From a bacterium (GTDB lineage Bacteria > Zhuqueibacterota > Zhuqueibacteria > Zhuqueibacterales > Geothermadaptataceae), in the NCBI GenBank assembly GCA_024275575.1, contig JAJRYV010000122.1, positions 1-47,841 on the forward strand: DNA of 47,841 nucleotides. The letters are read 5' to 3'. A program made the translations under genes and the position numbers. Shown in pieces: positions 229 through 31,008 of the stretch. A model generated the notes under the pieces. The model did no database searches and had not been told where the DNA came from. It saw only the letters and a program-made list of their open reading frames with translations. Positions within the stretch are counted from its first letter, which is position 1, and every line of letters begins with the position of its first letter.

Positions 229-3200
229 CTATTTCCTCAAAACCCGCAATGGTTTGTAGTACTCTTTTCCATCGAGGCGAGCATAAATACGATCTAGCTG
301 CAATTGCTCTTTCCGGCAAATACTACGAAACTGCAATTAAAACAGGTCTGGTCTTTTTCTGCACAAACGGGTGGGTGAAAACGGCCGTCGACAATAAACC
401 GGTGAATTGCGGTGATATTTTGCTGGATACGATCCACTTCGTGCTTGAAATTAGCCTGTGGTAAAAATCCGTATTTGCGTTGACCGGAAAAGACCGGCGT
501 TTCCAGACTGACCTTGTCTTTGCGCATAGCCTGGAATTCTTTCCGCGCAAAATAACTGCTCTTTTTAATTTGCCGATACGATTTCACTAGATAAGTTCCG
601 GCGCCGATAAGCGACTTGCCCGGATAAAGTTCATCGATACAGCTTTGTAAAGCGCGAATTTGCAAGGGAAGTTTGAAGTCCAGGCCTTTGGCGATTCTCT
701 CAACAGTGCCGAGGTCTGCAGAGTTGTAATAATAAATGATGAGATTCCTGCCGTCCTGAGTTTGGTCAATGCGATCAATCTCCAGAGTGTAAACGATACC
801 GTTGATTGCGAATGTGCGCTCCGCTTGATCGAATTTGAGATTGGCCTGAAATGGTTCGAGCAGGTCGAGGCGTTGCTGCTCATTTTTCAAAAAAGCCGCA
901 GCACGCCGGGGCGGCGCCGGGCATTGGCCGCTGCACCGCTCAATCCTGCGAGCAGGCCATTTTTAAATTTTGTGCTGAAAAAATCATCTTTTTCAGTAAG
1001 AACTATTTCAAAAGCATTTTCCGCGATCTTTTTGAGCGCCGCCTCTGCTTTTTGCGGCACATTGCATTCGGTCTCCATTTTAGCGGAAAACTCTTTTAAA
1101 ATGTGCCGCATCAACAAACCGCGTTCTATCCGGTCGGGGTGGTAATCGATGAATCCCTCCAGTTTGAGCTCCATCAAATCATCAAAAAGATAACGCAGGC
1201 TGCAGCCGGCGTAGCGTTCGATTTTTTCGCTGTTGTAAGTCTCGCCGGCCAATTTTCTCCTGAGGTGATTTTTGTCGTTTTCAGAATTGATCAAACCGTC
1301 AAAAACGGAAAATTGCGCCGAACTGTTGCGCCGGCCATCGCAGGTAAAAATAGCGAGGAGAGCGTCATAATCCTGCTGATTCGCCGTCCTGAGTTCCTGC
1401 AGGAATGGCTGTGTTTTTGCCGGGTCGCGATCGATATGTTGTGCGATAAACGCAATTTTATCGCGCAGAGCAATCGCGCTCCGCTCTTGTTGGCGGCGGT
1501 CATTTTTTTCACCGAGGCATTTTAACGTTTCGGTGATTAACGGCGAAACCAGTATCTTTTTGCCGCCGTCGGAATAGGGGTAGCTTAAAATAACGTTCCG
1601 CAGGTGGCGTTTAGTATTTGATAAAAAATATGGCGGGCGCGATCCACGCAGGCGCCGCCGTCGGTTAATCTGCGTCCGGCTTTTTTCGGTTGCAGGAAAT
1701 TAAACACTTCCTGCGCGGGAAACTCCCCATCGACCAATCCGGCCCAAAAAGTAATGCTGCATTTTTTTTGCATGCCCTGCAAGGGCGTTACGATGCGAAC
1801 AGCATCCGCGGCCGGCGCTTCGGGAATATAGAATTCAGTATCCGCCAACAGATGCGTGAATCCCTGAACCAGCGACGACAGAGGGTGCTTTTGCGGTTCG
1901 GAACTCATGATTGAAAATTGCTGCTCCGGCGCGGTTAATATTTTCTCGATACCGGAGAGAATACTTTATCCTGCTGCGCGTATTTCTCCAACCCGGCGAT
2001 AGATTGTGTGTTATCATCGATACCGAACTGCGCCATCATGCTGCGCACGGCGCTGCAAAAGGCGGCGGGATACATATTTTTTTGCCAGTTGTTCAAAGCC
2101 CTGCCCGCCTGTGCGACCAGGTAAAACTGCACCACAATATCGAATAATGCCCGCTGGTATTGCCTGGGTTTTCCCTTGAATTTGCTCTGTAAATAGGATG
2201 AAATAAAGTGCAGTGGATGGGAAGCGTTTTGCCACTTCACCGCTTTACCGGCTTTTCTTTGCATATTTTGCAAGCGTTCAAAATTAAGAGTCAACTTTTG
2301 CGGCTGCGGAAGATGCTGCAAAACAAAATCGGGGTCGTCGATCAAACCGATAAATTTGGTATCATCGAGAAAACTTTGCAAAGCCGGCGCCGATATTTTC
2401 ACCTGAAAAGTAATATAGGGTGAGGAGAAAATCCGCTCGCGCACAGCAAAGGGGTTGGCGGCGATGGCATGCTCCACCATTTGTAAAATTAACTGCGCCA
2501 GGGGGAAATAGGCCGGCGGCATGCCGTGGCAACCAGCATAGGTTAAACCGAACCGCGGCAAGCAGGACGTAAAGTTCATAATTGGCCACAACGATCTGCA
2601 TATCGCTCAATGCCGTTCCGGCCTGGTTGCGCCGGACGATTTCTCCGGCGATAAACGCCATTTCCTGATAGCGGTCATTGGCTGTTTCGATAATGATGTT
2701 ATCGCTGTGGGCAAGCGTGCGCTTTTCAGCGGCTTCCTGAAAAACGGCTTCGCTGAGCTGCTGCGGCCGGCTTTTGTCCTCTGTTGCGAAAGCCAACTCT
2801 TTAACAGAATGCTGTCTTCGCATCTGATCGAGTAAAACATCGATTCGGCGACCGCACTTAAAAGCTGCGGGTGCGGCATGCTCATTTGTGGAATGTGCAA
2901 ACAGAACCAGAGGAAAGCATTTTATAAGCGCCTGCATGAATGAGAATTCCATCGCGGTAAAATGACTGAAACCCAAAATAATCAGTTTCTGCTCGCTCAA
3001 TTCAGGAAAGAGTTGAGCCGTCGTTGCAGAATCCGCTTGTTTGCAAAAATGCTGCACGGCGCGGCGTAAATCAAAAAGATTATTTTCATCGAGATGTTTT
3101 TCTAATTCATCATAAATATCGAGCAGATCGCGTTCTTTGGCGGAGAGGGTGCCTTTCTTGAGTTCGTTCAAGGCAGCAAGGAGATTCGCCTGGCCGTTTT

Positions 3201-12620: not shown

Positions 12621-12627
12621 TAGGACA

Positions 12628-12714
12628 ATCCGTAGGGGTGTCCCCCAAAAAACAACGGGACTGAGAACACACCCTTCGAACCTGAACCGGATGATACCGG
12701 CGTAGGAAACGGTC
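12628..12714 (+). promoter_or_regulatory. TPP (thiamine pyrophosphate) riboswitch
   Basis: The conserved THI-box elements are all present in order: GGGGTG near the start, CTGAGA at 12661-12666, ACCCTTCGAACCTGA in the middle, GGATGATACCGGCG and a final AGGAA. The closing stem P1 is CCGT at 12630-12633 with ACGG at 12709-12712. The TPP riboswitch binds thiamine pyrophosphate and normally shuts off the genes after it when the vitamin is plentiful. The strong terminator at 12768-12805, between the aptamer and the receptor gene, is the likely expression platform, so control is probably by premature termination. Confidence 0.96.
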
Positions 12715-12767
12715 GATTTTTCTCCTGTTAAGCCCGGGAGAAGCTTCACACTTTCAAGTTGGATTCG

Positions 12768-12805
12768 AAAGCCGTTTTCCACACGTCGGGAATCGGCTTT
12801 TTTTT
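12768..12805 (+). terminator. Terminator of the TPP riboswitch
   Basis: The hairpin pairs AAAGCCGTTTTCC (12768-12780) with GGGAATCGGCTTT with one mismatch, loop ACACGTC, followed by five more T residues. It is 28 bases before the receptor start codon, so it acts as attenuator of the operon rather than as an end of a preceding gene. Confidence 0.85.
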
Positions 12806-12832
12806 CATTAAACCAAAAGAAAGGATGAAGCG

Positions 12833-15253
12833 ATGAACCTACGTTTCGTGCAAAGCCTGTTCTCGATGTTGCTGTTTTTCTCAACCGCTGTGCTGTCGGC
12901 GCAGGTAGGCGAAAGAATTTCAGGCACAATCGAAAGCAGAGAGACAAACGAATCGCTGATCGGCGCCAATATCGTCGTGTTGCGCACCTCCCTGGGTGCA
13001 ATCTCCGATAAAAACGGAGAGTTTCGCCTGCCCAAACTACCGCCGGGTGAGTATGATTTGCAAATCACCTATATTGGCTACAGCACACAAAAGTTGCACG
13101 TTACCGTGCCCTTTACCGGTACAAAGCTGCGAGTACGGCTAAGCAATGAAATCATCGCCGGAGCGGTTGTGACTGTGGTGGCAACGCAAGCCCGCGATCG
13201 CGTTTCTCCGGTGACGTTCAGTACCCTCACCAAAAACGAGCTCGAAGCCCGTTACAGCATCGAGGAAATTCCCGAAGTGATTTCCGAGTTGCCCTCAACG
13301 ACGTTTTATTCGGACGGTGGCAATAATCTCGGTTATAATTACCTCAGTATTCGCGGCTTCGACCAGCGCCGGGTGGCTGTGCTCATCAACGGTATTCCGC
13401 AAAACGATCCCGAAGATCACAATGTCTATTGGGTTAATCTGCCGGATTTTACCGCCAATGTACAGAGTATTCAGGTCCAACGCGGTGCCGGTTCGGCATT
13501 TTACGGCCCGGCGGCTATCGGCGGTTCCATCAATATTCTCACTAATTATTTTTCGACTGAAAAAGAGTTGAAGTTTTTTGCCGGCGCCGGCGCTTACGAT
13601 ACGCAAAAGTATTCTATTTCTTACAATACCGGCCTGCTGCGCAACAAGTTCGTGCTTTATGCCCGCACCTCGAAAATCATCAGTGACGGCTACCGCAACG
13701 GCGCCTGGGTAGATTTCCGCAATTATTTTTTCGGCGCTGCATATTATACCAAAAACAGCAGCTTGCGTTTGCATGCCTTTGGCGGCCCGGTAAAAGATGG
13801 TTTCGGCTATTACGGCATTCCCAAAGATTATAATTCCGATGACAAATTGCGGCGCAGCAATTCTTTCCGCCCGCAAGAGCAGGAAAAATTCAATCAGCCG
13901 CATTTTGAAGCCATTCACGAATGGCGGCTGTCACCAAAACTTTTCCTCAACAACAGTCTTTTCTACGTGCGTGGTTATGGCTATTTCGATTATGACGGCA
14001 GTTGGGGCACACCGGAATATTTTCGCCTGACACCGGAATTTGGTTTTTCAAGTATCGATGACATCCCTGCCGATGCGCTCATCCGGGCTTATGTCGACAA
14101 TAATCAGATCGGCTGGTTGCCTAATCTGACCTGGAAGCACAAAGCGGGAGAGTTGGTGGCCGGTGCGGAAATTCGCGTTCACCGATCGTTGCACTGGGGG
14201 CGTTTGCAGTCCGGCGCCGGTTTGCCTGCCGATGTCGTCGGTAACGATGCGCGGCGTTATTACGAATACAAAGGAGCAAAGAATGTCTTTTCATTTTACC
14301 TGCATGAAACCCTTCGGCTGAGTGAAAATTTAATCGCGGTTGGTGATATGCAATTTGCCTTTAAAAAATACCGCTTGTACGATGAAAAATTTCTCGGCAA
14401 TGATTTTTTACTACCGCATAATTTTCTTAATCCGCGCTTTGGGCTGAATTATAATTTGAATTCAAATACAAATATTTACGTCAATATTTCGCGGACGACC
14501 CGGGAGCCACGGCTGAAAAATTATTATGATGCTGCGGAAGCGAGTTATCCCGAAAGCTGGGGAGCGGTGCGGCCGCAGTTTGAAGAAAAAGCCGGCGGCG
14601 GATATGATTTTGACCAGCCCCTGGTGGAACCGGAAAAACTCACAGATTTCGAGCTCGGTATTGGCTTTCGCAATACGTTTTTTAAAGCCTTCGCCAATGT
14701 CTATTACATGGATTTTCAGGATGAAATTATCAAAAGCGGGCAGCTCGATCGTTTCGGCCAGCCGATAACCGGCAACGCTAACCACACGACACATCAGGGT
14801 CTGGAGTTAAGTTCCGAGTTGCAAGTTTTGCCGCAGCTTTCCTTTAGTGGGAATTTATTGGTGAGCCAGAATAAACTCGATTCCTACAAAACCTACGACT
14901 GGGGCGGGGTAACCACAGATTTGAGCGGCAACCAAATCGCCGGATTCCCCAACACCCTCGCTAATGTGCGTCTTACATGGTCATGGCATGAAACCTATAT
15001 CTCGGTGCTCGCCAAATATGTGGGCAGACAATACACCGATAATTCACAATCAAAAAAACGGTCAGTAGCGCCCTATTCCGTTTTTAATCTAAATATGCGC
15101 TATCAATTGAATAAATTAGGTTTAGATGGGCTGGAACTGCGTTTACGTATCAACAATTTGCTCGATAAAAAATATCTTGCCTATGGCGAGGGTGATCAGT
15201 TCTGGCCGGCAGCCACACGCAACGGTTTTGTCGGCGTGCAGTATGTTTATTGA
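12833..15253 (+). CDS. TonB-dependent receptor, predicted thiamine (or thiamine derivative) importer
   Basis: This 806-residue outer-membrane receptor has a signal peptide (about 1-23), a carboxypeptidase-regulatory-like domain (about 27-105, with GTIESRETNESLIGANIVV and GEYDLQITYIGYS), a plug domain (about 120-235, with SIRGFDQRRVAVLING and VQRGAGSAFYGPAAIGGSIN) and a beta-barrel ending in an aromatic residue (VQYVY). It is the first gene behind the TPP riboswitch and is followed by thiamine pyrophosphokinase, so thiamine or its phosphates are the inferred substrate. This matches the TPP-regulated receptors known in Bacteroidota. AAAGGA precedes the ATG. Confidence 0.88.
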   Translation: MNLRFVQSLFSMLLFFSTAVLSAQVGERISGTIESRETNESLIGANIVVLRTSLGAISDKNGEFRLPKLPPGEYDLQITYIGYSTQKLHVTVPFTGTKLRVRLSNEIIAGAVVTVVATQARDRVSPVTFSTLTKNELEARYSIEEIPEVISELPSTTFYSDGGNNLGYNYLSIRGFDQRRVAVLINGIPQNDPEDHNVYWVNLPDFTANVQSIQVQRGAGSAFYGPAAIGGSINILTNYFSTEKELKFFAGAGAYDTQKYSISYNTGLLRNKFVLYARTSKIISDGYRNGAWVDFRNYFFGAAYYTKNSSLRLHAFGGPVKDGFGYYGIPKDYNSDDKLRRSNSFRPQEQEKFNQPHFEAIHEWRLSPKLFLNNSLFYVRGYGYFDYDGSWGTPEYFRLTPEFGFSSIDDIPADALIRAYVDNNQIGWLPNLTWKHKAGELVAGAEIRVHRSLHWGRLQSGAGLPADVVGNDARRYYEYKGAKNVFSFYLHETLRLSENLIAVGDMQFAFKKYRLYDEKFLGNDFLLPHNFLNPRFGLNYNLNSNTNIYVNISRTTREPRLKNYYDAAEASYPESWGAVRPQFEEKAGGGYDFDQPLVEPEKLTDFELGIGFRNTFFKAFANVYYMDFQDEIIKSGQLDRFGQPITGNANHTTHQGLELSSELQVLPQLSFSGNLLVSQNKLDSYKTYDWGGVTTDLSGNQIAGFPNTLANVRLTWSWHETYISVLAKYVGRQYTDNSQSKKRSVAPYSVFNLNMRYQLNKLGLDGLELRLRINNLLDKKYLAYGEGDQFWPAATRNGFVGVQYVY

Positions 15254-22881: not shown

Positions 22882-25269
22882 TTAACGTGTACGCACGAGC
22901 ATCGTTTTAAACTCGATCTGTTTTTCGCTTTTTAATCGATAAAAATAGAGACCGCTGGAGACGGTACGACCGAAACGATCACGCCCGCCCCACTTCCGGC
23001 TGTGCATGCCTGTTGCCAGCACACCATCGAAAAGTTTGGCGACTAACTGCCCGCGGATATTGTAAATCTTCAGCGTAATATGCCCGCTTTCAGCGAGGTG
23101 GAATTCGATCTGTGTCGTCCGGCGTCCGCTTTGCGTGAGCTCGAACGGATTGGGATAGTTTTGCGCTAATGCCAAAGTTGCCGGCATGCGGGTTTCGCTG
23201 CTCGTTTTCACATCAGTGATCGTGGTTTGCATGACGAAAATAGTCGAGTCCTCAGCAAAACCGCTGAAACCTGCATTAGCGATGAAGAGTTTATCGGCGA
23301 CCAGCAGCAAGTCTTCGGGTTTTTGCCCAACCGGTATTATTTCTTCTAATTTGAGCGCGGTGAGATCGAAAGTGCGCACATCGTTGTTGAATGTGGAGAC
23401 GAAACCCATATGGTTTTGAATCGCCACCTGCCGTGGGCCGTCCCAGCCGGTTGTGCCCACTACCAATTGGCCGGCATACGTCCAGCTTTCAATATCGAGA
23501 ACCTGCACCGTGTGGCTACCGTTAACGGCGATGTAAATTTTGCCGTCTGCTTGTGTCAAACCGTTTGCCGTATCGCCAAGCGGTTTCCCGGCGATTGGTG
23601 CAAAAATATCCGTCGCCGCTTCAAAAGTCGTCAGCGAAGCCTGATTGGCGTTGTAAAAACCCTCGTTGAGCACGTACCAGCGTATGGCGCCCGGCACGAC
23701 TGGTGAAGGCATAGCTATTGCCTGACGCGGCAAAATGCCACAGGATATTTGTGCCATAATTTCCTGCGTCACCGGATCGATGAGGAAAAATTTGCCTCGA
23801 TTGCCATCAAAAACCGCCGTTGTTGCCCATATTTGATCGGCGGCAGCGTCGTAACCCAAAGCGTAAATTTTGTTTCCCAGAGCCGGTTCAGCGAGTAAAA
23901 GTGAGTCCTGTGTGAGATGAAAAGATTTCCCGTCGATTTGGCTGATACGATCGGGATTCGATTGCCGCAGTAGTAATTGCGGGCTATTGTTTTTCGGCAT
24001 TAACGCCAGGTTACCGGCGAAATCGCTGAAAGTAATTTTTGCGATAATTTCACGGCGGGCGGGGTCGATTTTAAAAAGCGCCGCCGGTGTCTCTCCGGCC
24101 TGCAACCGGCCGTCGAAATTCATATCCCTGCCTTCGGAAAGCGCATAGAGCCGGTTATCTTCTGCGAGAAAAATATCCAGCGTGCGCAGGCCGGTAACGA
24201 TCGTATCGACGACAGTTTTACTGGTGAGGTCGATGACGAAAATCGTCGAATCTGCAGCAAAACCGGTAAAGCCGCCATTAGCGACGAAAAGCATGTTGCC
24301 GAATACCGCCATGCGCTCCGGCTTTTGCCCGACGGCGAGGCTGTCGGTGATTTGCAGGGTGCGAATATCAAAAATCCGCACATCATTTTTGTAAGTCGTC
24401 ACAGCGGCGCTGCTATCGCCGGGCAGCATGAGGATACGGCGCGGGCCTTGATCTTTCAGCGTGCGCATATCAACCATGCCGGTTCGCATTTCTTTTTGTA
24501 AATCGAAAATCTGCACGCTGTGAGAGCCGTTAAGCACGACGAATAACCGATCGCCGTGGCACAGCAGGTCGTTTCCCGTATCGCCAAGCTCGACCCCGGC
24601 GATGTTTTGCGAAAAATTCTCCTGCACATTGAGGTAACTCAAAGTGGCATTGTTGGCGTTGAAAATCCCCTCATTGATCATTAAAATTCCGGTGGAGCGA
24701 GTGCGATCATTGAAAAAAGCCACAGCATCGCTGGCGCCGGGACCTGTTCGCATCGCATGTTGGAGTTTGCCGTTTTCAGTCATTATTCGCGCTTCGCCAG
24801 TGCCGCTGTAACCGCCTGTGCCGATGATGAGCCGGCCTCTTAACCGGTCGATGCTGAGTTCAATCTGTTTGAAATTTTCACCGCTTGCAGTGTTTTCCAA
24901 AATAAATGTATCGATTTTCGTCGTCAGTGTCTGTGTATCAAATGTACTGATGCGCATGGGTTTTGCCTGCACAAAATAGCCGGTTTCTCCTGAAACGGCG
25001 AGCTTGCCGATCGCGGTGCTGAAAGAGCGTTTTGCGAGAATTTCATGCGTCTGCGGGTCGATGCGAAAAAGTGTACCCGCAGTTTCGCCGGCGGTGGAAT
25101 CCGTGAGCCAGTCGAAATTGAGATCACGCCCCTGCGACAGAGCGATCACTGCGCCGGAGTGGTCGAGAGCCAAATCTGCAGTTTGCAAACCGACGGCAAT
25201 GGTATCGATAATTTGAGCTGTCAGATTTACAGCGGTAAAAAAAAGAAAAACGGTCAATGTTTTTTTCAC
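22882..25269 (-). CDS. Tandem double BtuG-like beta-propeller with sorting domain
   Basis: This 795-residue secreted protein has a signal peptide (1-19) and two homologous propeller units, about residues 22-354 and 355-695. Both begin VGLQTADLAL/TGLRTLDIFL, then ALSQGRDLNFD/ALSEGRDMNFD, and share an NEGxxNxNxAxL stretch, a GDTGN/GDTAN turn, an LNGSH/VNGSH xVQ motif and a GQKPE motif. These are the marks of the YncE/DUF5074 family that includes BtuG, the surface protein that hands cobalamin to BtuB in Bacteroides. A C-terminal sorting module (about 700-795, NYPNPFEL, LKIYNIRGQLVAKLF and a basic tail) follows. It starts with GTG behind GGAG, 19 bp after the lipoprotein gene. I infer B12 capture; each unit probably forms one seven-bladed propeller. 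Confidence 0.85.
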   Translation of the reverse strand: MKKTLTVFLFFTAVNLTAQIIDTIAVGLQTADLALDHSGAVIALSQGRDLNFDWLTDSTAGETAGTLFRIDPQTHEILAKRSFSTAIGKLAVSGETGYFVQAKPMRISTFDTQTLTTKIDTFILENTASGENFKQIELSIDRLRGRLIIGTGGYSGTGEARIMTENGKLQHAMRTGPGASDAVAFFNDRTRSTGILMINEGIFNANNATLSYLNVQENFSQNIAGVELGDTGNDLLCHGDRLFVVLNGSHSVQIFDLQKEMRTGMVDMRTLKDQGPRRILMLPGDSSAAVTTYKNDVRIFDIRTLQITDSLAVGQKPERMAVFGNMLFVANGGFTGFAADSTIFVIDLTSKTVVDTIVTGLRTLDIFLAEDNRLYALSEGRDMNFDGRLQAGETPAALFKIDPARREIIAKITFSDFAGNLALMPKNNSPQLLLRQSNPDRISQIDGKSFHLTQDSLLLAEPALGNKIYALGYDAAADQIWATTAVFDGNRGKFFLIDPVTQEIMAQISCGILPRQAIAMPSPVVPGAIRWYVLNEGFYNANQASLTTFEAATDIFAPIAGKPLGDTANGLTQADGKIYIAVNGSHTVQVLDIESWTYAGQLVVGTTGWDGPRQVAIQNHMGFVSTFNNDVRTFDLTALKLEEIIPVGQKPEDLLLVADKLFIANAGFSGFAEDSTIFVMQTTITDVKTSSETRMPATLALAQNYPNPFELTQSGRRTTQIEFHLAESGHITLKIYNIRGQLVAKLFDGVLATGMHSRKWGGRDRFGRTVSSGLYFYRLKSEKQIEFKTMLVRTR

Positions 25270-25288
25270 TTTTGTTCTCCAAAAATTT

Positions 25289-26374
25289 TTATTGAATTAA
25301 AATTGCACCGGGCAGAATGCGCGTCGCGAAGCGAAACTTCTCCCGGCCGGAAAGATCGAAGCAGACGACTTCACCATTTGTGGTGAAATTCCGGGCGTTG
25401 CTGACGAATAGCTCACCCCGTTGCAGGTTAAAAGCGATGGCATAAAAATAATTGTCCCCTGAAAGAGCAGTACGCGGGATAAAATCAAGCCGTAAAATTA
25501 GACGCATCGACAAAGAAACTGTAACGATAGCGCTGTCGGTGATCACATAAGCGGCGCCGTTTTGATCGAAGGTAAAATCACGCGGGTGGTGCGGGATTAA
25601 AATCGTATCGAGCACGGCGAAACGCGCCGGGTCGAAAACGACGATGCCGGATGGTTTTTCAGCCATCCAGGAGCCGCTGCCGCCGATATACAGCAACCCG
25701 TCGGGCCCTATATGCATGCTGTTGCAGTTGGGCAAAATGGGAATCCGGCCGATTTCCGTTCTGTCATCGCGCTTGATAATACTCAAAGTGCCGGCGCCGG
25801 TTTCTGCTGCGCGAATATCGCCGAGACCGCTATTGGTGACGAAGATAAAACCTGCTGCAGCGACGATGCTTTCGGGCGCCGGGCCGATGGATATTTCATC
25901 GGTTATACGGCCATTTTCGAGATTGATACGCAGTACGGCATCGGTATAAAGTGCGGTGACGTAAGCGATAGAATCGTCGACGACAATCATATTGCGCGGA
26001 CTGGGATTCCCCGGCAGCAGGATGCGCCCCAGGCTGGTCAAATCGTGACGATCGACAATTTCGATGGTATTTGAGCCGTTCATCACGATGTAAATACGCT
26101 CGCTCTGGACAATCCAGCTGTTGGCCGTATCGCCGAGTCGCAAGCCCGGATTCTGCTGCTGAAAAACGTTGTGCACGGTGAGGCCGCTTGCCCGGTCGTA
26201 ACGGCTGATGACGGCATTATCCCGCCCCCACAAACCTTCGTTGAGAACCAAAATGCTTTCTTCGCCTGAAATGATCTTTTGATTTTCAGGCGCTTGCGGG
26301 TTTTTCACACAGGCGAAAAAACTGCAGAGCAGGCTTTGTGCGAGCAGAATTTTGGGGGTCTTATTTTTCAGCAT
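25289..26374 (-). CDS. BtuG-like beta-propeller lipoprotein, predicted cobalamin-binding
   Basis: The 361-residue protein has a lipoprotein-type signal (hydrophobic, with Cys at FFAC about residue 21) and a single YncE/DUF5074-like propeller unit. The stretch ILVLNEGLWGRDNAVISRY, the turn LRLGDTANSW and IYIVMNGSNTIEIVD match the BtuG family pattern closely. Its ATG overlaps the end of the receptor gene by 14 bases, so the two are translationally coupled, as expected if they form a receptor-capture complex. In Bacteroides, BtuG binds B12 very tightly and passes it to BtuB; that function is transferred by family and context, and the ligand is not proven here. Confidence 0.87.
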   Translation of the reverse strand: MLKNKTPKILLAQSLLCSFFACVKNPQAPENQKIISGEESILVLNEGLWGRDNAVISRYDRASGLTVHNVFQQQNPGLRLGDTANSWIVQSERIYIVMNGSNTIEIVDRHDLTSLGRILLPGNPSPRNMIVVDDSIAYVTALYTDAVLRINLENGRITDEISIGPAPESIVAAAGFIFVTNSGLGDIRAAETGAGTLSIIKRDDRTEIGRIPILPNCNSMHIGPDGLLYIGGSGSWMAEKPSGIVVFDPARFAVLDTILIPHHPRDFTFDQNGAAYVITDSAIVTVSLSMRLILRLDFIPRTALSGDNYFYAIAFNLQRGELFVSNARNFTTNGEVVCFDLSGREKFRFATRILPGAILIQ

Positions 26375-28676
26375 GCCCGCTCCTCATTTCCGCCTGCAGA
26401 CGCCAGATGCGCCCGGGCATCGGATAATTGTGAATGATTTCATAAGTAACATCTACGATATTTTCGATTTGTAGATTGAGTACGCAATTGATTTTGCCGA
26501 ACGATTTTTTTATCCCGGCTTTTAAATCGATAATCGCATAGGCCGGCAGCAGGCTGTCGAAATCGTTTTCCGACAGATGATAGCGATAGCTCACCCGCCG
26601 CGCTGTGAGTGAGAATTGTCCGGACAATCGCGCTGTGAGTGGCTGTTCGAGCGCCATGATCGCGGTGAAAATTTCCCGCGGGATATAGACCAACTGTTTA
26701 CCGAAAGTGCGGCTGCCCGGGCTGCGGTCTTCAGCAGTTTGCCGCGTCCAGGTGGTGCGCAGATGTATCCTTTTGCCCGGGCTGCGCCACTCTCCCAGCA
26801 ATTCCAGGCCGCGATGGCGGGTTTTGCCGACATTTTCGGCGCTCCATAAAACCGGGGAGCGGGGAATGGAAATGATTTGATTGCTCACAGCAAAGGCAAA
26901 AAATGAAGCGTCGAAAATGAAATTGCCCCTAAAAGCAAATGCCGCATTAGCGCCACTCTCTATCGAGAGGCTTTTTTCCGGTTTGAGCCGGCGATTGCCA
27001 TAGTTTAAAAAATACTGCTCAGCAAAAGCCGGCACACGAAAACTGTGTGCAGCATGCAGCCGCAAATGCAGTGGCAATTGCGTTGGTTTGAAATTGAACC
27101 CCATGCTGGGGCTGAGCGCTGAACCGGCATCGGAATAGTGGCTGAAACGCAGGGCAAATTGCAGCATGCGAAAATGCAAACCACTTTCATCATTTTTTTC
27201 CCACAAAAAAGTCGCATGCACAAACCGGCGCTGTACTTTTTCGATGATTTCGAAGCTTTGCGCCAACGGGTGCGCCAGATTATTGCTGCGCAATTTGCTC
27301 TCACCGGCTTCCAGTTTTGTTAAAAACCGTTGATTGGTGCGAATAATCTCAAAAGCAGATTGGGCATAAAGCATATGATTACGGTAAAAGTCATCGATGC
27401 CCTGTGGACGTATTTTTACCTGCGGGTCACGATAATTCAGATCGGACTTGCGCCAACGTAACGCGTTTCGCCAAATTTTATCAGGCGCAATGCGCCATGA
27501 AAATTGCCCGGTGAGCTGTGTGTCTTCATCGTTCTGCCGCGCCTGTGAAGGGACAAAACTTCCCTGCAATACAGCGCCGGGAACGCCGCGGCGGCCGCTG
27601 TAACGGGTGAAACTCAATATCGTGGTTTTGGCGTCGGTTTTTTTTTGCAACGTGCTCAGAAAATGAAAGTTTTCATAATCGGCATTGGCGCGGGAAAGCA
27701 CGGTATCGCGGCCAAAGACATTGAAATGGAAGGGGTAATTTCCGGTGGCGTTTTGCCGTGAGACTGCGGTTACAGCCTGCAGCCCGGTCACTGTGCCGCT
27801 GGCCCGGAATTGTAGCGATTGTTGTCCAAATTCACCTTTGGTTGTGCTAAATTTGATCGCCGGGGTCTTGCCGGCAACAACGGTTCGTAAATCGATGACA
27901 CCGGCGAGTGCGTTGGCGCCGAATTGTGCCGCATTGCCACCGCGATAGAGATCGATGGCCTCAAAAGCATTCATATCCAGGGTGGAAAGATCGGTGACGC
28001 CGCTTTGTGAATTATCATATTCGATGCCGTCGAGGAGAATTTTTACCTGAGTTCCAGCCGCCCCGCGCAATGAGACGGTTTTTAAGCCGGAAAACCCACC
28101 ATAGTTTTTGATGAAAATACCCGGTGCAAAAGTGAGCACGTCTGCGGCATCTGCGGCGGCAATTTCGTCGATTTCCTGCGCTGCAAAATGCAGCACCGGC
28201 TGGCTTGAGCGTTGCATGAGCAGCAAGCGCCGGTCTTTTTCCGCGCTCAGGCTGATCTCTGACAATGCCAGCGGTTCGGGTAAAAGTTCAATCGTGACCG
28301 AGGTATCTGCTATCATAAAAAAATGGATATTGACATTTTGATAACTCAAGCGCTGCACGATGATTGTCGTTTCGCCTGCCGGGGTATTGGCAAATTGAAA
28401 GTGACCATTTTCGCCGGAGAGTTGGTGTTCAATTTTATTGTGCTGTTTTAAAAATACCTGTGCCGTCGCAACAGGTCGACTTGTGAGCGCATCGAGAATT
28501 CGGCCGCTGATGGTGAGACTTTGTGCTAAGCCGGTTTTCTCGCTACCGACAAATATGATCAGCAAAATGCCGAACCAGCGCACGCCGCCTCCCATTCTGG
28601 CTAATATTGGTTTAATTATCAACCGGTAAACCTCAGCGCACAATTTGAAACCGGCCCCAAAATGCTTCGGAAGCAA
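26361..28676 (-). CDS. btuB: BtuB-like TonB-dependent cobalamin receptor
   Basis: This outer-membrane receptor has a signal peptide, a carboxypeptidase-regulatory-like domain (LTISGRILDALTSRPVATAQ), a plug domain (DVLTFAPGIFIKNYGG, VSLRGAAGTQVKILLDG and IDLYRGGNAAQFGANALAG) and a long barrel. The listed start gives 771 residues and overlaps the upstream gene by 44 bases. An internal Met at residue 28 (28595; MGGGVRWFGILLIIFVG) gives a proper signal peptide and a 37-bp gap, so it is the more likely start, though without a strong ribosome-binding site. Substrate cobalamin is inferred from the riboswitch upstream and the coupled BtuG-like gene. The symbol names function by context; BtuB-type receptors in this group are not close to E. 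coli BtuB. Confidence 0.87.
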   Translation of the reverse strand: MLPKHFGAGFKLCAEVYRLIIKPILARMGGGVRWFGILLIIFVGSEKTGLAQSLTISGRILDALTSRPVATAQVFLKQHNKIEHQLSGENGHFQFANTPAGETTIIVQRLSYQNVNIHFFMIADTSVTIELLPEPLALSEISLSAEKDRRLLLMQRSSQPVLHFAAQEIDEIAAADAADVLTFAPGIFIKNYGGFSGLKTVSLRGAAGTQVKILLDGIEYDNSQSGVTDLSTLDMNAFEAIDLYRGGNAAQFGANALAGVIDLRTVVAGKTPAIKFSTTKGEFGQQSLQFRASGTVTGLQAVTAVSRQNATGNYPFHFNVFGRDTVLSRANADYENFHFLSTLQKKTDAKTTILSFTRYSGRRGVPGAVLQGSFVPSQARQNDEDTQLTGQFSWRIAPDKIWRNALRWRKSDLNYRDPQVKIRPQGIDDFYRNHMLYAQSAFEIIRTNQRFLTKLEAGESKLRSNNLAHPLAQSFEIIEKVQRRFVHATFLWEKNDESGLHFRMLQFALRFSHYSDAGSALSPSMGFNFKPTQLPLHLRLHAAHSFRVPAFAEQYFLNYGNRRLKPEKSLSIESGANAAFAFRGNFIFDASFFAFAVSNQIISIPRSPVLWSAENVGKTRHRGLELLGEWRSPGKRIHLRTTWTRQTAEDRSPGSRTFGKQLVYIPREIFTAIMALEQPLTARLSGQFSLTARRVSYRYHLSENDFDSLLPAYAIIDLKAGIKKSFGKINCVLNLQIENIVDVTYEIIHNYPMPGRIWRLQAEMRSGHAEK

Positions 28677-29625
28677 AATCCATTTTTACAAAATAACTGC
28701 CGGCCGGCCAATGGCGAATCGATAGCTCGATTTCCTGTATAATGTCCGTCGTCGGTGCCGGTGAGATTCGTTTGATCCGTTCACCGTGAATAGAGTAAAT
28801 CAGCAGTTTTGCCCCGCTGTTTTGCCGGTTTTGCCAGCGGATTTTCAAATGATCAACCGTGGTCGTATTTGCCGGATTGGGATAAATCTGCAGTCGCTGA
28901 TGGGTTGATTTTTTATTCATACGATCATCGTGAACAGCGGCTGGCAATACGGGCATGGAGTTAACAGCCACGATAGCGTCGAGATCAAATCCACTCAGCG
29001 TTGGATCCCAGAACGGGTGTTGTGCATCGTTGATGATAAAAGCGGTGATATCGCGCAGTTCGACGAAGCGCACCGTATCGAGACCGAGGATTGTGAGGTC
29101 AAAGCTGTCGCCACCGGAACTGTCGGGTTTTGTTGGGTCTGCCCAGCCGTTGGTCGGTGTCACGCCGGCGCAACCCTGCAATGTCAGGCTATCAAAAGGA
29201 AAAGCATAAAATGTAATACCATCTGTGCTGACAGCCACCTGCGCCGGCTCCGCGAAAGGTAATCCGGCTTTTGGCCCCTGCTGATGCAAAAAAACATTTT
29301 CAAAGACGGTGAAATCCGGCCCCGGGCCGTCGAAGATGAGATTATCAGTGAACTGCAAAATGATGCGGCCGCCAAGCCCGATGGAGGCAATTTCAGCAGG
29401 ATCGGCGCTGCCGGTGAGTTGTGTTGCCATGGAATCGGGCGGCCCATGAATGTTTTGTGGGAAATAGTCGCTACCCTGGCCGCTGTTTTGTCCACTGCCC
29501 GGTTCGAATAAGAACATGGCATCAGCCCAGGGGTCGGCCTTTTGAGCAGTTAATTCCGGGATTGAGATTACTAGCCAGAAAAAAAACGGCAGCAAAAATC
29601 GATTCCCTCTTATTTTTGCTGACAA
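28633..29625 (-). CDS. Secreted cell-surface protein of the cobalamin operon
   Basis: First gene after the cobalamin riboswitch, 330 residues. A hydrophobic signal (LPFFFWLVISIPELTAQ) is followed by a beta-rich domain with SLGGRI-like IGLGGRIILQF, DGPGPDFTVFENVF and EPAQVAVSTDGITFYAFPFD, then a second block with FVELRDIT. The end (YPNPANTT, then LLIYSIHGERI) is a type IX-like sorting module. The GPDFxVFEN/VSxDG pattern is one I recall from 'cell surface proteins' that travel with BtuB and BtuG genes in Bacteroidota. Function unknown; it may help capture B12. The start is TTG at 29625, supported by GAGG nine bases upstream. A perfect eight-base inverted repeat (GCAAAAAT/ATTTTTGC, 29592-29619) covers the first codons. 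Confidence 0.8.
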   Translation of the reverse strand: MSAKIRGNRFLLPFFFWLVISIPELTAQKADPWADAMFLFEPGSGQNSGQGSDYFPQNIHGPPDSMATQLTGSADPAEIASIGLGGRIILQFTDNLIFDGPGPDFTVFENVFLHQQGPKAGLPFAEPAQVAVSTDGITFYAFPFDSLTLQGCAGVTPTNGWADPTKPDSSGGDSFDLTILGLDTVRFVELRDITAFIINDAQHPFWDPTLSGFDLDAIVAVNSMPVLPAAVHDDRMNKKSTHQRLQIYPNPANTTTVDHLKIRWQNRQNSGAKLLIYSIHGERIKRISPAPTTDIIQEIELSIRHWPAGSYFVKMDFASEAFWGRFQIVR

Positions 29626-29774
29626 TAAATTGATCCTCAGTAACTTATGCTGATTCTTTGTGAGATAAACTGCAGGAAGGTGACGAAAGAGGTTAGAATT
29701 GGTGGGAAACCGGAGGATTGATTGCCGAATTTTTTCTAACGCCCGCCCTCCCTCGAAGGCCTCTGCAGCGCATT

Positions 29775-29938
29775 ATTACAGGCAGGTTTCCTGACTCACA
29801 GCGGAAATGACTGCTGCCTTCCCATTGAGTACATGTAAAAAAGTGGCAGGCAGTCTCCAAATGCTGTTTACAGTTGCGGGGCAGCTACCGGATTTCACGG
29901 TATTCCCTTTTCATCTTTCTGAGAAAGACACCTGTAAT
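29775..29938 (-). promoter_or_regulatory. Cobalamin riboswitch
   Basis: On the minus strand all hallmark elements occur in order: closing stem ATTACAGG (29931-29938) with CCTGTAAT (29775-29782), GGTG, AAGGGAA, GTGAAATCCGG, the B12-core GCTGCCCCGCAACTGTAA, GGGAAGGC and the B12 box GTCAGGAAACCTGCC. The class binds adenosyl- or aqua-cobalamin and represses the genes that follow when B12 is plentiful. The 150 bases from aptamer to start codon show no strong terminator, so translational control of the first gene is likely. Confidence 0.97.
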
Positions 29939-29946
29939 GCTTTGCG

Positions 29947-29974
29947 AATTTAAAAACAAATTGCGAAATTGCAA
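29947..29974 (-). promoter_or_regulatory. Promoter of the cobalamin operon
   Basis: Reading the minus strand, TTGCAA (29974-29969) and TAAATT (29952-29947) are spaced by 16 bases. Initiation near 29940 would begin at the 5' end of the riboswitch, which supports the call. Confidence 0.5.
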
Positions 29975-30166: not shown

Positions 30167-30222
30167 GAATAGCATAAAAAATTACTGACAATTAACGATA
30201 AAATAATATGTTGGGAGTTGGG

Positions 30223-31008
30223 ATGCGGAAACTGTTGCTCATAATTCTCGTCGCTGTTTTTTGCGCCGGTTGTGTTTCAATTTGTCAGGCACAAGAAGGC
30301 AAAAAAGAGAAAAAAAAGGGGAAACTGGGGAAACTCGCGAAAACTTATACTGATGATGAAAAAGACGAAGACGGTAAAAAGAAGAAAAGCGATAACGACG
30401 ATGATGACTCCTTTTTTGCTGTAATCGTGGAAGATATGCTCAGTTATGCGATTTCCAATATGCAGGCAGGGCCTTATCCTTATAATGGTGCTGCAGCTAA
30501 TTTTTCCCCAACGGACGTTTATCCCGGCGGTATTCTGCATGTGCAGTCGAGCTATTTTCGCCATAATTCCGATCTCTTTGGTTTGCTCTGGCGAATCAAT
30601 TATTACTACAAACGTTTCGGGATCGACTTTGATTTGATCAACCTGATCGAAGATCTGGGAATGGAAAATGATTATCTAAACCTTGCCGGATGGCGCGTTT
30701 CCTGGGATTTTGTTGCCGATCAGGAATTTCGTTTCGGTGGACAGCTCGGCTTGAGAAATTTGTCTTATGAAGGGGTGAGCAAAACCGGTCCCGATGCTGG
30801 ATTTCGTCTCGTTGGTTTGCCGGCAAAACCTTTTATTTTTGAAGGCACAGGCACCGTGGCGCGGATAAACGGTCACCAGCTCTCCACCCTCAGCGGCACC
30901 TTCGGCGTGATGGTTAAACGTGTCCATATTTTTCTCGGTGGCGAAATCATTCGTTCGTCCGATATTTCCATCGATGGATTTAAGTTGGGATTCCGTGTCT
31001 GGTTGTAA
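30223..31008 (+). CDS. Putative outer-membrane beta-barrel protein with acidic/basic linker
   Basis: From ATG 30223 (GGGAG five bases upstream) the product has 261 residues; an earlier ATG at 30208 is less likely. A signal peptide of about 24 residues is followed by a low-complexity stretch rich in Lys, Asp and Glu (about residues 26-65). A strand-rich domain then ends in LGFRVWL, an aromatic, hydrophobic C-terminus typical of outer-membrane barrels. I do not recognise the family. It is preceded by the structured leader element and has no cotranscribed neighbour within 300 bp. Confidence 0.6.
   Translation: MRKLLLIILVAVFCAGCVSICQAQEGKKEKKKGKLGKLAKTYTDDEKDEDGKKKKSDNDDDDSFFAVIVEDMLSYAISNMQAGPYPYNGAAANFSPTDVYPGGILHVQSSYFRHNSDLFGLLWRINYYYKRFGIDFDLINLIEDLGMENDYLNLAGWRVSWDFVADQEFRFGGQLGLRNLSYEGVSKTGPDAGFRLVGLPAKPFIFEGTGTVARINGHQLSTLSGTFGVMVKRVHIFLGGEIIRSSDISIDGFKLGFRVWL

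Follow-up and report, generated by a model that had tools for sequence, protein, structure and literature searches.

The contig analysed here (C102, 47,841 nucleotides, hereafter the window) comes from a draft genome of the KSB1 group, 4.96 Mb in size and 97.7% complete, and carries a cobalamin riboswitch followed by genes for a protein termed X, a BtuB-like receptor, a BtuG-like protein and a double BtuG-like protein. It is highly probable that this operon serves the outer-membrane stage of B12 scavenging in a B12 auxotroph, with a CbrT-like step at the inner membrane. Each part belongs to a known kind, and the novelty lies in how they are combined and probably secreted, with a predicted BtuH-type protein and a double BtuG both bearing tails of the kind used by the type IX secretion system (T9SS), in a phylum outside the Bacteroidota and together with a putative CbrT-like inner-membrane step.

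In the pathway proposed, a low internal cobamide level would lead the riboswitch to permit expression of the operon. X and the double BtuG would be exported, leave through the outer membrane with the help of the type IX system and, either held at the surface or shed, bind extra B12 and feed it to the BtuB-BtuG lid. BtuB would act as a TonB-driven channel, and the lipoprotein BtuG would be its lid, capturing B12 and handing it inward. A CbrT-like S-component of an energy-coupling factor (ECF) transporter, together with the EcfT module, would then move B12 across the inner membrane instead of BtuCDF.

The riboswitch, the receptor and the BtuG-like protein

The riboswitch (Table 1) is the sole cobalamin riboswitch in the genome, and the four genes behind it, in the order X, BtuB-like, BtuG-like and double BtuG-like, lie close together, with a 14-nt overlap between BtuB and BtuG and 19 nt between BtuG and the double BtuG. 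A previous interpretation of this DNA made from its letters (the sequence-only reading) had placed a promoter and a cobalamin riboswitch ahead of the four genes, with neither BtuCDF nor a cobamide remodelling gene among them. The riboswitch, the operon and the absence of these genes from it were all borne out. The promoter was not, as a sigma-70 scan of the minus strand upstream of the riboswitch found none of that type; the operon may have a promoter of another kind. Folding of the leader 3' of the aptamer is no better than that of shuffled sequences (z -0.97), and a search for a clear terminator or sequestering hairpin gave no convincing candidate. X begins with TTG, with GAGG upstream, and the double BtuG with GTG, preceded by GGAG. 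The TTG given as the start of BtuB probably lies too far upstream; the ATG at 28595 fits better because a normal signal peptide results, and the gap after X is then 37 nt.

Table 1. Features of the operon and the evidence on which each assignment is based
Feature	Position in window	Strand	Evidence
Cobalamin riboswitch aptamer, RF00174	29764-29950	-	101.1 bits (cut-off 31.5); full-length match, 1-189
X, predicted BtuH-type domain (~residues 28-226) and T9SS-type C-terminal domain (~240-330)	28633-29625	-	AlphaFold, VIA-align, profile, Pfam
BtuB-like TonB-dependent receptor with CarboxypepD_reg-like N-terminal domain	26361-28595 (open frame to 28676)	-	Pfam barrel and plug; PDB BtuB1
BtuG-like seven-bladed propeller, probable lipoprotein	25289-26374	-	DUF5074; PDB BtuG1
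Double BtuG-like protein, two propellers and T9SS-type tail, without lipobox	22882-25269	-	DUF5074; TIGR04183; BtuG matches

The calls of a BtuB-like receptor and a BtuG-like lipoprotein stand, the second as probable. BtuB has the TonB receptor and plug domains, its best match in the PDB is BtuB1 of Bacteroides thetaiotaomicron (B. theta; 8blw_A, E 3.6e-43), and it reaches 99 bits against NCBIfam TIGR01779, under the equivalog cut-off. It thus combines plug and barrel with nearest similarity to B12 receptors and with a B12-type riboswitch in front. The best PDB matches of BtuG are all BtuG-type chains (BtuG1, E 2.7e-24; BtuG2, ~4e-17). In the B. theta complex of the two, BtuG1 is the lid and BtuB1 the barrel (PMC10404256), and homology together with the gene overlap suggests that the BtuB and BtuG encoded here may work by the same lid mechanism.

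X, the double BtuG and their secretion tails

Pfam matched the T9SS-type tail of X and nothing in its core domain, and a PDB search with the single X sequence gave no match. A profile of 88 X domains matched a single PDB sequence, B. theta BtuG1, in its H domain (E 5.7e-5). The core of the AlphaFold model has a predicted local distance difference test score (pLDDT) of 97-98. Its best VIA-align matches, both with Z 13.4, are BtuH2 (7biz, 155 residues) and the H domain of BtuG1 (8blw, 162 residues), the next-best match to the same domain having Z 10.0, and Foldseek ranks BtuG1 first (E 3e-5). When the BtuH2 stretch is aligned by way of BtuG1, construct residues 299 (Asn) and 301 (Phe) are the counterparts of Asn110 and Phe112 in X. 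If the construct is read as 'residues 103 to 593', which gives an offset of 100, the two BtuH2 residues are Asn399 and Phe401, both of which contact B12 (PMC8941943). Asn110 is invariant and Phe112 more than 90% conserved among the 88 sequences. X is therefore best read, from profile match, predicted fold and these two equivalents, as a BtuH-type predicted B12 binder. It shares with B. theta BtuH2 (PMC8941943, PDB 7BIZ) the fold of the B12-binding domain, the Asn-x-Phe motif, in X a putative B12 contact, and a place in a btuB operon, but differs in its shorter domain (~195 residues), its T9SS-type tail and the lack of PKD/Ig-like N-terminal domains: Pfam finds no PKD domain in X, and the mature protein begins at the B12-binding-type domain. 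The sequence-only reading had called X a surface protein and had counted three capture proteins; with X a predicted binder there are four, including BtuB. A DUF4465/BtuJ identity found no support, since in none of 26 members did Pfam give a DUF4465 match and the NTPAY-type loop is not seen in the alignment; no BtuJ structure stands among the fold matches listed for X, which proves nothing by itself.

The double BtuG-like protein proposed by the sequence-only reading is upheld by a DUF5074 match (54.7 bits), by two matches to BtuG, at ~27% identity, and by BtuG-type folds in its model. Along its chain the halves of BtuG alternate (C-half, N-half, C-half, N-half) and the tail comes last, and it resembles a doubled, permuted BtuG. 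In the AlphaFold model, residues 211-520 align to BtuG2 (8bmx_D) in normal order (Z 24.7, 287 residues by VIA-align), and BtuG2, BtuG3 and BtuG1 folds match with Z 23-25 over residues 164-526. VIA-align matches that begin at residue 20 and end at 682 use ~300 residues (YncE, Z 31.8). This suggests that one propeller is nested inside the other, the alignment ranges giving the ends alone. Single forms of ~450 residues with a tail exist in Kapabacteria, and one of them (L125) aligns to either half of the double protein (31% over residues 5-332, 25% over 356-786), so that the latter looks like a duplication of a tailed single-propeller protein.

It is possible, if unlikely, that these propellers have lost B12 binding and now act as a scaffold, or that they bind some other ligand, for example a B12-carrier protein or a modified cobamide. 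The low identity to BtuG and the best overall fold match of the model, a generic YncE, would agree with this, as would the B. theta pair in which BtuK2 does not bind and BtuK1 does (PMC12751083). Against it, the conserved LGDT(A/G)N ... NGSH region is retained in each N-half, and this is the part of BtuG from which the hydrogen bonds to B12 come (blades 1-4, PMC10404256).

That two operon proteins carry sorting domains is also confirmed. Tails of the Por_Secre_tail or FlgD_ig kind are found on X and the double BtuG: X scores 30.3 bits for Por_Secre_tail (Pfam cut-off 27) and 22.4 for TIGR04183, under its cut-off of 23, and the double BtuG scores 29.8 for TIGR04183. The signal region of the double BtuG has no cysteine, and it bears a T9SS-type tail instead of a lipobox. 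The SprA translocon is encoded in the genome (945 bits), so that a type A sorting domain and the system itself occur together, and export of both proteins by this route may be supposed. A protein with such a tail may be anchored or released, and the release suggested by the sequence-only reading is one of these two possible fates.

Proteins in which BtuG and X are fused bear on what X may do outside the cell. Such fusions occur in ~24 of the 60 genomes of the comparison class; they have ~640 residues and a similar tail and lie beside BtuB where seen. They had appeared among the class matches as nitrous-oxide reductase propellers, an assignment that was dropped when they proved to be BtuG-X fusions, and they are best read as the counterpart of B. 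theta BtuGH. X and the double BtuG might alternatively not serve their own BtuB but, as 'cobalophores' set free from the cell or as binders carried on vesicles, keep B12 from competitors. We regard this as rather unlikely, as the two share their riboswitch and operon with BtuB and BtuG, and the fusion of X to BtuG itself suggests that X works at the receptor. Points in its favour are the T9SS-type tails without a lipobox, the dispatch of B12 binders to vesicles for delivery in B. theta (PMC12751083) and a genus-mate (G001) that does without both proteins.

B12 need and the inner-membrane step

Genes for MetH and methylmalonyl-CoA mutase are present in the genome. CbiC was found in none of the 60 class genomes, its own included, with positive search controls, and for this reason the organism and its relatives look like B12 auxotrophs. 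FecCD (BtuC) had no match in the whole genome; in this organism both absences refer to the 97.7% complete draft. The genome does encode an ECF S-component (C46:36705-37199) as well as EcfT, and the only significant match of the S-component profile in the PDB is CbrT (6fnp, E 1.4e-6). Where genome completeness is 90% or more, the S-component occurs alone in 37 genomes and BtuC alone in five; none has both and one has neither (Fisher p 6e-6, ignoring kinship). BtuC in relatives was counted from eight FecCD matches with E <1e-80 (families f5, f7, f9 and f11), weak ones of ~19-44 bits being excluded. It is likely that the CbrT-like S-component substitutes for the missing BtuC. CbrT itself was first predicted from BtuCDF absence and gene neighbourhood. 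ECF-CbrT of Lactobacillus delbrueckii (PMC5997447, PDB 6FNP) is the best sequence match and does the work of BtuCDF in an auxotroph for B12, as the S-component probably does here; the present host is Gram-negative with a TonB/BtuB outer-membrane step, and the profile similarity is remote.

In the organism itself the resemblance to CbrT is a related sequence without FecCD; a tie to riboswitch or BtuB is seen in relatives only. The S-component lies within 8 kb of the riboswitch in 13/40 genomes and upstream of several fusion operons. In three genomes of family f3 it follows the genome's only riboswitch and continues in the same frame into BtuB, the two being joined by a stretch that resembles a signal peptide, MKTQKTLFLTLLCVAVLCSSALAQ (L200:3799-6597 (-), L201:411-3209 (-) and L202:3254-4465 (+); 932 aa, cut in L202). 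This frame possibly gives one polypeptide that is cut by signal peptidase, or contains an internal start. It seems very unlikely that the S-component imports another vitamin while some unrecognised route takes B12 through the inner membrane, given that CbrT is its best PDB relative, that its distribution is complementary to that of BtuC and that in family f3 it sits directly beneath the riboswitch in frame with BtuB. The case for this alternative is that Pfam assigns only a generic or riboflavin-type S-component and that in several genomes the gene is far from the riboswitch.

The S-component has other partners in the class. In family f9 (L203:4424-7231 (+) and L204:575-3094 (+)) it is in a single frame, of 935 and 839 aa, with an apparent second, different receptor-like outer-membrane protein. 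A ~640-residue outer-membrane-like protein with no clear Pfam match pairs with the S-component in L084:9280-11202 (contig C46 of the organism itself), L071:5282-7261 and L075:8048-9889, and in some relatives this pair sits just upstream of the B12 riboswitch.

Several observations weigh against joining these parts into one B12-scavenging pathway. The S-component of this genome is on another contig than the operon and has no riboswitch, and the genus-mate G001 has riboswitch, BtuB and BtuG only, so X and the double BtuG are dispensable. The other six B12-contact residues of BtuH2 cannot be aligned to X, and the double BtuG model, built from six sequences with pLDDT 77, is of middling confidence. 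The lipobox candidate of BtuG, SFFAC after the signal segment, is atypical at -3; clearer lipoboxes occur in its relatives in G001, G003 and G005 (LSAC, ASGC and AQGC), and BtuG is a probable surface lipoprotein.

Distribution and relation to known systems

A search of the genome collection with the X alignment yielded at least 252 relatives, and one with BtuG alone no matches. They are found in Ignavibacteria, Kapabacteria, Chlorobi, metagenome-assembled genomes (MAGs) labelled Bacteroidetes, KSB1, Calditrichota, Electryoneota, Fermentibacterota, Zixibacteria and Gemmatimonadota, and among the matches listed mostly adjoin BtuB or BtuG. The suggestion of a system outside the Bacteroidota is sound. 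A cobalamin riboswitch is present at 10/10 fusion loci checked in the class and in G001, G003, G005 and G034, which makes 14/14 KSB1-class loci, and at 20/24 further X loci from other groups; homologues without it, named by the sequence-only reading as evidence against a B12 role, are thus the exception. X with BtuB and BtuG as neighbours is a common arrangement in Ignavibacteria, Kapabacteria, KSB1, Calditrichota, Electryoneota and other groups. Kapabacteria/Chlorobi-type MAGs (L122, L138 and L123, the BtuG end being cut off in L123) have the same proteins with a riboswitch in front, in the order double BtuG-X-BtuB-BtuG, their double protein 25-27% identical to that of the window. Because of this the four-gene set is not KSB1-specific.

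In a quick tree of X with SH-aLRT supports alone, the fusions form one cluster save L167, which is cut by a contig end, and X of the window falls outside it with those of the same-family genomes G003 and G005, nearest to a Melioribacteraceae sequence. G001, G003 and G005 have flanking genes in common with the window locus, and the state of G001 fits a loss of X and the double BtuG. Some MAGs with X loci bear the labels Armatimonadetes, Actinomycetota and Bradyrhizobiaceae (L123, L164 and L197); in the tree these loci cluster with sequences of the FCB (Fibrobacteres, Chlorobi and Bacteroidetes) group and are likely to be misbinned contigs. A Zixibacteria MAG (L181) has two consecutive cobalamin riboswitches (1515-1733 and 2385-2571 (+)) ahead of a BtuB-fusion operon and a further BtuG-like and receptor pair downstream of it.

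Of the genes near the operon, those for CYTH and LTD proteins downstream were considered as operon parts and set aside, for they adjoin in G001 too but no B12 link was seen. A gene divergent to the operon (30208-31008 (+)) has a lysine- and acid-rich stretch after its signal peptide; counterparts occur in L032, L033 and L034, and it is divergent in 4/4 family f1 genomes examined. Elsewhere in the window (12624-15253 (+)) a thiamine pyrophosphate riboswitch (71.7 bits) precedes a TonB-dependent receptor with a CarboxypepD_reg domain, a probable thiamine uptake receptor.

The nearest known system is the BtuB1-BtuG1 (BtuGH) locus of B. theta (PMC10404256, PMC12751083), which likewise has a cobalamin riboswitch, a TonB receptor, a BtuG propeller lid and a BtuH domain, the last fused to BtuG as in much of the KSB1 class. 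In the window, by contrast, the predicted BtuH stands as a protein of its own and there is a second BtuG in double form, both of these have T9SS-type tails and not lipid anchors, and the KSB1 host has no BtuC by the FecCD search. Since B. theta normally has a surface suite that goes beyond BtuB-BtuG (PMC12751083), the size of the operon is in itself no expansion beyond what is known. The proposal of an extended apparatus accordingly holds for the presence of extra proteins, but these are not special to the lineage, and B. theta too has more than the pair. BtuG was described as exclusive to Bacteroidetes in a survey of gut genomes (PMC6143338), and BtuH was reported as an accessory of gut Bacteroidetes (PMC8941943). 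In the literature searched, which left out most subscription papers, both were reported in Bacteroidetes only and no account of the present arrangement was found. DUF4465 binders are known outside the Bacteroidota, and 40% of them neighbour PF16819 (DUF5074) propellers (PMC13398666), so part of the wider spread of BtuG was already visible in that survey.

We favour, with less assurance than for the operon itself, the view that these genomes hold a distinct Gram-negative B12 pathway across an auxotrophic candidate class. In it BtuH and a double BtuG (in relatives one BtuG-BtuH-tail protein), shown or shed by the T9SS, would feed BtuB-BtuG, and the place of BtuCDF would be taken by an ECF transporter of CbrT type, which in family f3 shares its reading frame with BtuB. 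That BtuG and BtuH stand behind B12 riboswitches in uncultured groups, KSB1 and Calditrichota among them, suggests that lid-type B12 capture is a wider trait and not a gut specialty. The T9SS-tailed forms would offer soluble, non-lipidated proteins for binding work, and the complementarity of BtuC and the CbrT-like S-component provides a testable answer to how B12 may enter across the inner membrane in Gram-negative bacteria without BtuCDF.

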